64,000 bases of DNA from Diaphorobacter limosus (GTDB lineage: Bacteria; Pseudomonadota; Gammaproteobacteria; Burkholderiales; Burkholderiaceae_C): positions 528,501 through 592,500 of the forward strand of contig NZ_CP136921.1 in NCBI RefSeq assembly GCF_033100095.1, in the 5' to 3' direction. The notes beneath the pieces were generated by a model. It saw nothing but the letters and a program-made list of their open reading frames with translations. It had not been told where the DNA came from and did no database searches. Positions 52,466-57,816 of this stretch are shown in pieces. The stretch's first letter is position 1. Every line of letters starts with the position of its first letter. A program made the translations under genes and the position numbers.

Positions 52466-54103
52466 ATGCGCGCCACTGCCCCCATGAACCCTCAGTCGCC
52501 CCCGCTCTTGCAAGTACGGGATCTGGAGGTGCGCTTTGGCGCCAAGCAGGTGGTGCACGGCGTGAGCTTTGACATCGCCCCCGGCGAGAAGCTGGCCCTG
52601 GTGGGCGAGTCGGGTTCGGGCAAGACCGTGACGGCGCTGGCCCTGCTGCGCCTGGCCGGCGACGCCCAGCTGACGGGCAGCGCGCTGATGGCCGGGCGCG
52701 ATCTGCTGCAACTGAGCGAACGCGAGTTGCGCGGCGTGCGCGGCGGCGACATCGCCATGGTGTTCCAGGAGCCCATGACCGCGCTGAACCCGCTCATGCC
52801 CGTGGGCGAGCAGGTGGCCGAGGTTTTGATGCTGAAACAGGCCCTGACCAAGGCACAGAGCGCGCAATCAGCTATCGAATTGTTAGCAAGCACGGGCATC
52901 CCCGAGCCCGCGCGACGCGCCGGCAGCTTCCCGCACCAGCTCTCGGGCGGGCAGCGCCAGCGCGCCATGATCGCCATGGCCCTCGCCTCGCGGCCCAAGC
53001 TGTTGCTGGCCGACGAACCGACGACGGCGCTCGACGTCACGCTGCGCGGCCAGATCCTCGATCTGTTGTCCGACCTGCAGCGCCAGACCGGCATGGCCGT
53101 GCTGCTCATCACGCACGACCTGCTGCTGGTGCGCCGCTTTGCCGACCGCGTGGCGGTGATGGAGCAGGGCGTGCTGGTGGAGCAGGGCGCGGTGGCGCAG
53201 GTGTTTGGTACCCCGCAACATGACTACACGCGCCGCCTGATCGGCAGCACGCCGCAGCGCGACGTGATCGAGGGTGCGGCGGCCGAAGGCGCCACCCCCG
53301 CCGCCCAGGCCGATGCACTGCGCGTTGCCTATCCCGTGCCACTGCCGGGTTTTCGTGGCTGGTTTGCCAAGGGCGAGTTCGTGGCGGTCAACGGCGTGGG
53401 TTTTCAACTGCAGAGCGCGCGCACCCTGGGCGTGGTGGGCGAGTCGGGCTCGGGCAAGTCCACGCTGGCCCAGGCACTGCTGGGCCTGTTGCCGTCAACG
53501 GGTGAGTTGCAGGTGGCGGGCCAGGCCTGGCAGCAGCCGTCGCATGGCAACAGCTCCCATAACCAGGCCTTGCGCCAGCAGGTGCAGGTGGTGTTCCAAG
53601 ACCCGTTCTCGTCGCTGTCGCCGCGCATGACCGTGGAAGAGATTGTCGGCGAGGGCCTGCAGGTGCACGCACCCCAGCTGCCGCTGCCTGAACGCCGCGC
53701 GCGCGTGGCCGCCATGCTGGCCGAGGTGGGCCTGACCGAGGCGCAGTTTCCCGGCCTGCTCGCGCGCTACCCGCATGAATTCTCGGGCGGCCAACGCCAG
53801 CGCCTGGCGATCGCGCGCGCCCTCATCGTGCAGCCGCAGCTGCTGGTGCTGGACGAGCCCACCAGCGCGCTGGACGTGACCATCCAGCAGCAGGTGCTGT
53901 CGCTGCTGCAGCGGCTGCAAAAGGAGCACGCCCTGTCCTACCTGCTCATTACCCATGATGTGGCCGTGGTGCGCGCCATGGCGCATGAGGTCATCGTCAT
54001 GAAGGACGGCGAGGTGGTGGAGTCCGGCAGCGTGCAGCAGGTGCTGGATGCGCCGCAGCACCCCTACACGCAGCGCCTGGTGGAGGCGGCGCGCGCGCCG
54101 TGA
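52466..54103 (+). CDS. yejF: Peptide ABC transporter, double ATPase YejF
   Basis: This 545-residue protein contains two complete ABC ATPase domains. Domain 1 has Walker A GESGSGKT (~45), signature LSGGQRQR (~160) and Walker B LLLADEPT. Domain 2 has GESGSGKS (~325), FSGGQRQR (~435) and LLVLDEPT. This fused arrangement is diagnostic of YejF. ATG 52466 lies 8 bases after a GGAG site; ATG 52484 is an alternative. It powers import through YejBE and ends the operon. Confidence 0.95.
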   Translation: MRATAPMNPQSPPLLQVRDLEVRFGAKQVVHGVSFDIAPGEKLALVGESGSGKTVTALALLRLAGDAQLTGSALMAGRDLLQLSERELRGVRGGDIAMVFQEPMTALNPLMPVGEQVAEVLMLKQALTKAQSAQSAIELLASTGIPEPARRAGSFPHQLSGGQRQRAMIAMALASRPKLLLADEPTTALDVTLRGQILDLLSDLQRQTGMAVLLITHDLLLVRRFADRVAVMEQGVLVEQGAVAQVFGTPQHDYTRRLIGSTPQRDVIEGAAAEGATPAAQADALRVAYPVPLPGFRGWFAKGEFVAVNGVGFQLQSARTLGVVGESGSGKSTLAQALLGLLPSTGELQVAGQAWQQPSHGNSSHNQALRQQVQVVFQDPFSSLSPRMTVEEIVGEGLQVHAPQLPLPERRARVAAMLAEVGLTEAQFPGLLARYPHEFSGGQRQRLAIARALIVQPQLLVLDEPTSALDVTIQQQVLSLLQRLQKEHALSYLLITHDVAVVRAMAHEVIVMKDGEVVESGSVQQVLDAPQHPYTQRLVEAARAP

Positions 54104-54127
54104 GCGCAGCTCCAGGCCACTGCCGGC

Positions 54128-54133
54128 TAGAAT
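54128..54133 (+). promoter_or_regulatory. Probable -10 box of the thrS leader promoter
   Basis: TAGAAT lies 45 bases upstream of the leader ATG, in the short gap after yejF. No good -35 is visible. It would start a leader transcript of about 200 bases before thrS. Confidence 0.4.
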
Positions 54134-54177
54134 ATGCGCTTTACAAGATAACAAGGGCGAGAAAGGCAATGTCGGTT

Positions 54178-54219
54178 ATGACACCGCGAACTACGACGGA
54201 GACCTCCACCGGCCGCTAA
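54178..54219 (+). CDS. Threonine-rich leader peptide for thrS attenuation
   Basis: A 13-codon frame reads [13 protein letters not shown] and then TAA. Six of its thirteen residues are threonine, three of them consecutive, using four different Thr codons (ACA, ACT, ACG, ACC). A GAAAGG site lies 10-15 bases upstream. CGGCC (54210-54214) and GGCCG (54224-54228) form a hairpin over the stop codon. The segment TTCGCGC (54229-54235) can pair with GCGCGGA (54267-54273), which is the left arm of the downstream terminator. This is the classical layout of amino-acid-starvation attenuation: stalling at Thr codons when charged tRNA-Thr is scarce would favour the antiterminator and raise ThrRS synthesis. 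Confidence 0.75.
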
Positions 54220-54263
54220 GGCTGGCCGTTCGCGCCTGCACGAGAGCTTTTCTCACCCTCACC

Positions 54264-54293
54264 AAAGCGCGGACTTTTGTACCGCGCTTTTTT
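54264..54293 (+). terminator. Attenuator (intrinsic terminator) in the thrS leader
   Basis: AAAGCGCGG (54264-54272) pairs perfectly with CCGCGCTTT (54282-54290) and is followed by TTT, giving a six-T run. It lies 45 bases after the leader peptide stop and 53 bases before thrS, so unconditional termination here would silence the essential gene. It must be conditional. Confidence 0.8.
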
Positions 54294-54346
54294 GCTTCTG
54301 GGCCTCAAAGCGCGCGCCGCAACCGCAATTCCCAAGGATTTCTCAC

Positions 54347-56266
54347 ATGCTTCACATCACGCTGCCCGATGGTTCCCAACGCGAATTCCCCGGCCCGGTG
54401 ACCGTGGCCGAGGTGGCCGCCTCGATCGGCGCTGGCCTGGCCAAGGCAGCCCTCGCCGGCAAGATCGGTGACAGGGTGGTCGATACCAGCCACCTGATCA
54501 CCGAAGACAGCCCGCTGGCCATCGTCACCGCCAAGGATGCCGATGGCCTGGAGGTCATTCGCCACTCCACCGCCCACCTGCTGGCCTACGCCGTCAAAGA
54601 GCTGTTCCCGGACGCGCAGGTCACCATAGGCCCGGTGATAGACAACGGCTTTTATTACGACTTTGCGTACAAGCGCCCGTTCACGCCCGAGGATCTGGTG
54701 GCGATCGAGAAGCGCATGGCCGAGCTGGCCGCCAAGGACGAACCGGTGGTGCGCCGCGTGCTGCCGCGCGACGAAGCCGTGGCGTATTTCAAGGGCCTGG
54801 GCGAGCACTACAAGGCCGAGATCATTGCCAGCATCCCCAGCAACGAAGACGTCAGTCTGTACCGTGAAGGCGCGTTTGAAGACCTGTGCCGTGGCCCGCA
54901 CGTGCCCAGCACCGGCAAGCTCAAGCACTTCAAGCTGATGAAGGTGGCCGGGGCCTACTGGCGTGGCGACCATCGCAACGAGATGCTGCAGCGCGTCTAC
55001 GGCACGGCCTGGGCCAGCAAGGACGAACTGCAGAACTACCTGCACATGCTGGAAGAGGCAGAGAAGCGCGACCATCGCAAGCTCGGGCGTGAACTCGATC
55101 TGTTCCACATCGACGAGCATTCGCCCGGCACCGTGTTCTGGCACCCCAAGGGCTGGACGCTTTGGCAGCAGGTCGAGCAATACATGCGCCGCGTCTACCA
55201 GGACAACGGTTACCAGGAGGTCAAGGGTCCGCAAATCCTGGACAAGACCCTGTGGGAGAAGACCGGCCACTGGGACAAGTACCGCGAGAACATGTTCACG
55301 ACCGAGTCGGAAAAGCGCGACTATGCCCTGAAGCCGATGAACTGCCCGGGCCACATCCTGATCTTCAAGCAGGGCATCAAAAGCTACCGCGACCTGCCGC
55401 TGCGCTACGGCGAGTTTGGCCAATGCCACCGCAACGAGCCCACCGGCGGCCTGCACGGCATCATGCGCGTGCGCGGTTTCACGCAGGACGATGGCCATAT
55501 CTTCTGCACCGAAGACCAGATCCAGCCCGAGGTGCTGGCCTTCACGCAGTTGCTGCAGAAGGTCTACGCCGACTTTGGCTATAGCGACATCATCTACAAG
55601 GTGGCTACGCGCCCCGAGGCGCGCATCGGCTCGGATGAGAGCTGGGACAAGGCCGAGGCGGCGTTGATCCACAGCCTGGAGGCGTCGGGCTGCGCGTTCG
55701 AGATTTCGCCCGGCGAGGGCGCCTTCTACGGCCCGAAGATCGAATACACCTTGAAGGACGCCATTGGCCGGCACTGGCAGTGCGGCACGATACAGGTGGA
55801 CTTTTCCATGCCCGAGCGCCTGGACGCCGAATACGTCGGCGAGGATGGCGGCCGCCACCGTCCGGTGATGTTGCACCGCGCCATCGTTGGTTCGCTGGAG
55901 CGCTTCATCGGCATCCTGATCGAGCAGCACGCGGGCGCGCTGCCGGTGTGGCTGGCGCCGCTGCAGGTGGCGGTGCTCAACATCACCGATGCACAGCAGG
56001 ACTACTGTCGCGAAATTGCCGCAAAGCTGCAAAAAGCACTGCCCCATCAAGACCTTAGGGTGGTGACCGATCTGCGCAACGAAAAGATTACGTATAAAAT
56101 ACGCGAGCATGCGCTGCAAAAGCTGCCCTACATCCTGGTCGCCGGCGACAAGGAAAAGGCCGCCGGAGCCGTCGCAGTGCGCGCCCGGGGCAACAAAGAC
56201 CTGGGTGTGATGTCCCTCGACGCCTTTGTCGAACTGATCGCACGGGACATCGCCTCCAAAGCCTGA
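54347..56266 (+). CDS. thrS: Threonyl-tRNA synthetase
   Basis: This 639-residue enzyme has the full ThrRS layout: an N-terminal TGS domain ([16 protein letters not shown], 1-62), the editing domain with [20 protein letters not shown], and the class II catalytic core with [12 protein letters not shown] and [15 protein letters not shown] (motif 2). [23 protein letters not shown] follows and leads into the anticodon-binding domain. The length equals the usual ~640. It is preceded by the Thr-rich leader and attenuator and followed by infC. Confidence 0.98.
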
Positions 56267-56314: not shown

Positions 56315-56338
56315 AGCTACGCTTTTCGTAGCTTTTTT
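56315..56338 (+). terminator. Hairpin with T-run between thrS and infC
   Basis: AGCTACG (56315-56321) pairs with CGTAGCT (56327-56333), followed by six Ts. It resembles a short intrinsic terminator inside the operon and could partly uncouple infC from thrS. The T-run ends 3 bases before the ribosome-binding region of infC. Confidence 0.65.
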
Positions 56339-56355: not shown

Positions 56356-56961
56356 ATCGCTACTGAATTTCGTGACCGTCGCCAGCGTGAGGAACGCAAG
56401 CACCGTCTGAACCGTGAAATCACGGCGCCTGAAGTGCGCCTGTCTGGTCCTGAAAATGAGCCCATCGGCATCGTCAGCCTGCAGGAAGCCCTGCGCATGG
56501 CGGGCGACCTGGATGTGGATCTGGTGGAAATCGCCGCTACGGCCAGTCCTCCCGTCTGCCGCTTGATGGATTACGGCAAGTTCAAGTACCAGGAGCAGAA
56601 GAAGGCGGCCGAGGCCAAGGCCAAGCAGACGGTCATCGACATCAAGGAAGTGAAATTCCGTCCGGGTACGGATGATGGCGACTACAACATCAAGTTGCGC
56701 AACATCCGTCGCTTCCTGGCCGATGGTGACAAATGCAAGATCACGCTGCGCTTTCGTGGCCGCGAGATCACGCATCAGGAACTAGGCCTAGCACTGCTCA
56801 ACCGCCTGCGTGACGACCTGGCCGACACCATTTTGGTCGAGCAGTTTCCCAAGCTCGAAGGCCGTCAGATGATCATGATGATCGCGCCGGCGCGCAAGAA
56901 GCCTGGGGTCAAGCCGGCGGCAGATGCCGCGCCGGTCGCCAGCGGCAGCGAAGCGGCGTAA
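56356..56961 (+). CDS. infC: Translation initiation factor IF-3
   Basis: This protein of about 201 residues matches IF-3: [31 protein letters not shown] in the N-domain, [16 protein letters not shown] in the linker, [33 protein letters not shown] and [16 protein letters not shown] in the C-domain. No ATG is available at the expected place. The best start is ATC at 56356 (ATC GCT ACT GAA TTT), placed 5 bases after AAGGTGA and giving the usual [10 protein letters not shown]-terminus. A TTG at 56341 is in frame but lacks a ribosome site. infC genes are known for non-canonical start codons (ATT in E. coli), which IF-3 itself discriminates against, giving autoregulation. Confidence 0.95.
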
Positions 56962-57774: not shown

Positions 57775-57816
57775 CAAGGGCTAGGGCTTGAAAAGGCGCT
57801 AGCCCTTGTTTTATTT
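57775..57816 (+). terminator. Terminator-like hairpin between rplT and pheS
   Basis: CAAGGGCTAGGGC (57775-57787) pairs with GCGCTAGCCCTTG (57796-57808) with one mismatch, followed by TTTTATTT. The preceding bases (GATAGCTACTTGTTTTGTAGCTG, 57735 on) also contain AGCTA/TAGCT repeats, so the unit may be a variant of the intergenic repeat family. No phenylalanine-rich leader like E. coli pheM is seen. Confidence 0.65.

Follow-up and report, generated by a model that had tools for sequence, protein, structure and literature searches.

In Escherichia coli, expression of the threonyl-tRNA synthetase (ThrRS) gene thrS is a textbook case of translational autocontrol, in which ThrRS binds an anticodon mimic in its own mRNA and blocks translation. 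T-boxes precede the thrS genes of Gram-positive bacteria, and leader peptides operate in E. coli in the pheM-pheST attenuator (Rfam Phe_leader) and in the thr operon leader thrL (Rfam Thr_leader). The available part of one study (PMC1183508) describes thrL as a biosynthesis leader with eight ACC codons, and the available part of another (PMC2965389) reports a T-box before hisS in Firmicutes and histidine (His) leader peptides, with predicted attenuation, before two hisS paralogues in bacilli. Here we analyzed a short leader in front of thrS in Diaphorobacter limosus, located in a window of 64,000 nucleotides (nt), i.e., the whole stretch of DNA examined, which covers positions 528501-592500 of contig C1 of the 4.1-Mb genome. 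The leader is very probably a ribosome-mediated transcription attenuator of thrS that would respond to charged tRNA-Thr. The coding and pairing anatomy of the leader, its conservation and its frame specificity were computed here; all coordinates refer to the window, and the leader elements and thrS lie on the + strand.

Leader reading frame, terminator and competing helices

The initial annotation had pointed to a 13-codon frame with six threonine (Thr) codons at 54178, and direct reading of the sequence bears this out. The leader open reading frame (ORF; 54178-54219), delimited by sequence and by comparison with relatives, starts with ATG at 54178, contains 13 sense codons, six of them for Thr (ACA, ACT, ACG, ACG, ACC and ACC), and ends with TAA at 54217-54219. 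An in-frame ATG at 54169 was considered as an alternative start and rejected; ATG 54178 is taken as the start because it is conserved, while ATG 54169 is present in a few relatives only. The Shine-Dalgarno-like stretch AGAAAGG (54160-54166) lies 11 nt before the ATG, and a -10-like element, TAGAAT (54128-54133), would belong to the leader promoter, as judged by its position and by relatives. A sigma-70 scan found no full promoter before the leader, and a simple scan found no terminator either at its thresholds. TAGAAT, AGAAAGG, the ORF and the terminator described below follow each other in this order, all between a yejF-like gene, which ends at 54103 (best NCBIfam model YejF, score under the cut-off), and thrS. 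The latter, presumably the regulated gene, occupies 54347-56266 with its ATG at 54347, encodes 639 amino acids and matches TIGR00418 (NCBIfam) with 720.6 bits against a cut-off of 383.65 (E 1.6e-216).

The perfect intrinsic terminator noted earlier just before thrS was recovered at 54264-54293 with a purpose-written stem finder; its arms (pairing 3:4) are AAAGCGCGG (54264-54272) and CCGCGCTTT (54282-54290), and its T run extends to 54293. An alternative pairing segment had been proposed as well, and predicted folds of the window RNA resolve it into two competing pairings, 1:2 and 2:3. In the naked RNA, segment 1 (CGCGAAC, 54185-54191), located within leader codons 3-5, is predicted to pair with GTTCGCG (54228-54234) of segment 2 (GTTCGCGC, 54228-54235), which leaves the terminator free. 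When the leader is removed up to a ribosome stalled at codon 6, the predicted fold joins segment 2 to its antiterminator partner, segment 3 (GCGCGGAC, 54267-54274), in an 8-base-pair helix over the terminator 5' arm. The fold of the leader region is modestly better than expected (z -2.14; 2 of 200 shuffles were equally good). A hairpin over the stop codon (54209-54225; CCGGCC 54209-54214 / GGCTGG 54220-54225), which had been part of the original proposal, is indeed predicted in the window, but it is not generally conserved: it was found in 20 of the 28 leaders of the sub-group sharing the segment 2 of the window (null 4.7) and in only 9 of 63 other family leaders (null 7.0). It was therefore rejected as the conserved switch, which consists of 1:2 versus 2:3.

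Conservation in the family and the order

For the comparison within the family, we used the sequences upstream of thrS from 110 of the 199 family genomes with a match, source genome included; a few of these loci reach a contig end (L107, with 234 nt, is one). The leader core, defined as a start codon followed by ACN CCN CGN AC, is present in 91 of the 110 genomes, with ATG as start in 89 and GTG in two. The ORFs of these 91 family leaders are 11-26 codons long, most often 13 (38 leaders) or 12 (20 leaders), and all end 18-66 nt before a terminator, which is found between leader stop and thrS in 91/91 cases (shuffled mean 1.1). Codons 2-5 are nearly invariant (ACA in 90, CCG in 91, CGA in 85 and ACT in 80 leaders). 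Beyond codon 5 both sequence and length vary, and 217 of the 819 in-frame codons encode Thr; the +1 and +2 frames contain 10 and 30 Thr codons, and nucleotide-shuffled tails 63.5 (standard deviation, sd, 7.3). Such frame-specific enrichment would be expected if the leader is translated as a Thr sensor, but not if it only forms an RNA fold. A GAAAGG-type stretch occupies the Shine-Dalgarno place in most of the 89 relatives with an ATG core, and TANRAT occurs 30-110 nt 5' of the leader start in 73 of the 91 leaders, mostly at 45-61 nt.

In a wider pattern search allowing one mismatch, 225 of the 299 family genomes had the core, as did 113 of the 141 genera, and the backward pattern gave about three matches; the source genome holds a single copy even with up to three mismatches. 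Of the 80 named records with the extended motif, 76 have a ThrS-like start no more than 700 nt downstream, and three of the remaining four have less than 190 nt of downstream sequence. The record of the laboratory strain Comamonas testosteroni ATCC 11996 (L256) contains the motif, and a ThrS start lies downstream of it. Because the leader is conserved to this extent (91/110 and, by pattern, 225/299 genomes), a chance origin is very unlikely. The initial annotation had suggested examining relatives for the start and Thr codons: the start, with its 89 ATG cores, the Thr codons, enriched in frame, the stop before the terminator, the terminator and the competing pairing are all conserved in the family. 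In seven leaderless family genomes (L041, L042, L050, L056, L069, L081 and L100), a -10-like element followed within very roughly 15-80 nt by a terminator-like hairpin was seen by eye before thrS; this arrangement is perhaps a leader remnant. A short palindrome of the type GCTATCAAAnnnATAG, perhaps an interspersed repeat, recurs by eye just 5' of the terminator in L037, L041 and L053, and partly in L057.

The competing pairing was quantified as the probability that the terminator 5' arm pairs with upstream RNA, and the null was obtained by dinucleotide-shuffling the stretch from stop to terminator. For the 91 family leaders, upstream pairing of the arm is 0.297 in naked RNA (null 0.525, sd 0.017) and 0.690 with a ribosome stalled at codon 6 (null 0.610, sd 0.015). 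The resulting shift of 0.393 compares with 0.085 in the null (sd 0.023; largest of 30 nulls 0.141). A shift of 0.204 versus 0.022 (sd 0.023; largest of 20 nulls 0.062) was calculated for 38 diverged leaders of other families, whose segment sequences are mostly unlike those of the window. Variation in the terminator pairs of the 129 stems was set aside as covariation evidence, since the stem finder itself demands pairing.

The leaders of other families come from 80 loci representing 46 other families of Burkholderiales. ATG ORFs of 7-26 codons with arginine (Arg)-Thr, such as MFRTCTTTWC, MFKRTTTTRISR, MSFRTTTTGTLNQG and MAVRTTTTHP, precede thrS in 33 of these loci, against 2.5 (sd 1.5) after dinucleotide shuffling. 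The script added seven ORFs with three Thr to these 33, and the set was then chosen by reading: L119 (uncertain) and L187 (no terminator seen) were dropped, L120, L150, L167 and L170 (the last three with a GTG start) were added by eye, and L130 and L182, both unclear, were not included. The 42 leaders thus accepted represent 20 of the 46 families and are diverged in sequence. A terminator was assigned by script in 38 of the 42 (shuffled 0.6), which are the leaders used in the switch test; the other four, left out of it, have a terminator-like stem by eye. Conservation thus extends beyond the family, with leader, stop, terminator and competing pairing kept in 20/46 families with other sequences. 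By pattern, 63 of the 80 loci (L111-L190) have a tRNA as the direct 5' neighbour, either of the thrS leader or of a terminator without a leader, and ARAGORN identified it as tRNA-Val(GAC) in 13 of the 13 loci given.

Proposed attenuation of thrS and alternative explanations

We infer the following course of events, from promoter activity and leader translation to stalling, termination and the threonine response. Transcription would start near 54140, and a ribosome would translate the 13-codon leader. When charged tRNA-Thr is plentiful, the ribosome would finish and leave, 1:2 would pair and the terminator 3:4 would form before thrS. When charged tRNA-Thr is short, the ribosome would stall at the Thr codons from codon 5 (ACT) onwards and cover segment 1, so that 2:3 would pair, the terminator would be blocked and thrS would be transcribed. 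The most likely outcome is that more ThrRS is made when charged tRNA-Thr falls.

Several observations speak against this scheme. With a ribosome placed at the stop, the arm of the 91 family leaders pairs upstream at 0.596, much as in the null (0.591); trp-like masking of segment 2 at the stop is thus unsupported, and ribosome release with 1:2 refolding would be needed. The core is absent from 19 of the 110 family genomes, among which L018, L061 and L093 show a diverged leader by eye, and 26 of the 46 other families examined yielded no accepted leader. L115 and L174 show no switch, and L172, L175, L179 and L190 a switch in the wrong direction. Only two Thr codons are present in 7 of the 91 family leaders and only one in 2 of the 42 leaders of other families. 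Furthermore, the shuffle nulls ignore shared ancestry, and seven of the features of the family loci were found with purpose-written finders.

It could be argued that the terminator merely ends transcription from upstream, i.e., from the yejF-like gene here and from the tRNA gene elsewhere, with the ORF being incidental. The frequent upstream tRNA fits this explanation, as do some loci with tRNA, terminator and thrS but no leader. An incidental ORF is disfavoured by the enrichment of Thr in one frame, by the conserved start and stop and by the recurrent -10-like element, and we consider this explanation very improbable. Less probable again, and the least of all those weighed here, is a metabolite- or tRNA-sensing RNA (riboswitch or T-box) that happens to include an ORF. 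In codons 2-5 even the wobble bases are conserved, beyond what a peptide would need, but outside the family the Thr ORF is retained on changed sequences, and the leader has no Rfam match. At the gathering score, the only Rfam hit in the window was a tRNA elsewhere, and 54100-54400 gave nothing at E up to 1; the covariance models of Thr_leader, Phe_leader and T-box, run in the same two ways, found no match.

Autogenous translational repression by ThrRS bound to an anticodon-like hairpin, as in E. coli, is the textbook mechanism for thrS, and we searched for such hairpins (NGU loop) in the last 90 nt before the gene. The outgroup consisted of 29 of 55 class genomes other than our own, those nearest by ThrS, and is an uneven sample of other orders. 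A hairpin with a Thr-anticodon-like loop is present in 15 of the 29 outgroup loci (shuffled 1.4), with loops CGU or GGU and, by eye, a UGU-like loop in L209. Within the order, 2 of the 80 other-family loci have one (shuffled 2.8), and so do 8 of the 110 family loci (shuffled 3.4, with a maximum of 7); in each of these eight the hairpin is the terminator stem itself, and the window, which has no such hairpin in the region searched, is not among them. Based on these counts, repression by ThrRS binding is highly unlikely here, ranking between the two preceding explanations. The Arg-Thr leader criterion is at chance in the outgroup orders (1/29, shuffled 1.3). Leader and anticodon-like hairpin were therefore not found together beyond chance in our sample, which suggests a replacement of one device by the other, whatever its direction and date. 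Within this sample, the difference from E. coli pointed out in the initial annotation is borne out, and the attenuator remains our preferred explanation. By eye, several Thr-anticodon-like hairpins stand in a row in the last 170 bases before thrS of the outgroup locus L195, and the same tRNA stretch was seen upstream of thrS in several outgroup loci.

The CGA-ACT dicodon and relation to known systems

Arg-Thr occurs in 124 of the 133 leaders (91 family, 42 other), and its Arg codon is CGA in 117 of the 124 (85/91 and 32/33), an unexpected preference, although shared ancestry inflates these counts. In the window, the CGA-ACT dicodon, identified by codon counts in relatives, lies at 54187-54192. 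CGA is otherwise a rare codon: among the Arg codons of thrS in 30 family genomes it accounts for 20 of 1222, and in six genes of the window for 3 of 204. Among the 133 Thr codons of these six genes, ACT occurs twice and ACA four times. Since an exact GTTCG lies downstream in only 32 of the 91 family leaders and 6 of the 38 others, its pairing with CGAAC was rejected as the full reason for CGA. In addition, the pairing of the third base of the Arg codon was examined in 91 family and 29 other leaders; among those in which this base is predicted mostly unpaired, 36 of 37 family and 13 of 13 other leaders still have CGA. Arg-Thr is not indispensable, since it is absent from 9 of the 42 leaders outside the family, seven of which have Leu or Pro before Thr.

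A his-leader reporter, reportedly hosted by Salmonella, bears on the role of CGA. In this reporter, according to the available part of PMC4046918, CGA slowed the ribosome and relieved attenuation, which leads us to propose that CGA-ACU sets basal thrS read-through. A fixed slow CGA-ACU might hold the ribosome over segment 1 even under Thr-rich conditions, securing basal read-through for an essential gene and making even a leader with only one or two Thr codons sufficient as a detector, in a device that replaced the ThrRS-binding-type operator of related orders. We put this forward tentatively, as a possibility with somewhat less than an even chance; as a rival, CGAACU may be kept for an RNA contact outside the folds modelled. 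Leaders with one or two Thr codons are of interest because many regulatory codons raise attenuator sensitivity in modelling, as described in the available part of PMC1183508. With the conserved rare dicodon, the influence of codon speed, and not of codon number alone, on attenuator tuning can be tested directly.

The thrS leader heads the gene run thrS, infC, (rpmI, rplT), pheS and pheT. E. coli infC has the rare start AUU; here, infC (IF-3, TIGR00168, 250 bits) has its probable start at the in-frame ATC 56356-56358 behind AAGG, the mechanical ORF list giving TTG 56341. The thrS-infC gap contains a terminator-like hairpin, AGCTACG/CGTAGCT, with a T run (56315-56338). E. coli pheST is preceded by the pheM leader; in the window, a terminator-like hairpin, CAAGGGCTAG/CTAGCCCTTG with TTTTATTT (57775-57816), lies directly 5' of pheS, and no Phe-rich leader ORF was visible there by eye.

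The attenuation class is classical, but thrS as its target in this lineage was not met in the literature covered, and CGA-ACU is a possible variant feature. No thrS leader peptide in Burkholderiales appeared among the matches listed, nor in the available parts of PMC2965389 and PMC4833913; the likeliest place of an earlier prediction, the 2010 survey by Lopatovskaya, Seliverstov and Lyubetsky, lies outside this coverage. Rfam release 15 is without a matching family, and the thrS leader could thus be added. If our interpretation is true, the use of the leader by a group distributed over an order, next to the anticodon-like hairpins at many thrS loci of neighbouring orders, would be a clean natural case of regulatory replacement at one essential gene.

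Like pheM-pheST, the thrS leader combines a peptide rich in the cognate residue before a synthetase gene with a terminator and an antiterminator; the amino acid and the gene are different, and no sequence relation was seen. It shares a Thr-rich leader peptide and a terminator switch with thrL, from which it differs in being short, in its core MTPRT or RT, in its rare codons ACA, CGA and ACT and in its position before a synthetase. The target gene and the regulatory aim are those of the E. coli thrS operator, whereas the control proposed here would act at the transcription layer, through the ribosome as sensor and a different RNA. As in T-boxes, tRNA charging would be sensed to control termination, but T-boxes bind the tRNA itself and require no ORF. 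The hisS leaders of bacilli likewise represent a predicted leader-peptide attenuation of a synthetase gene, in another phylum and for another amino acid.
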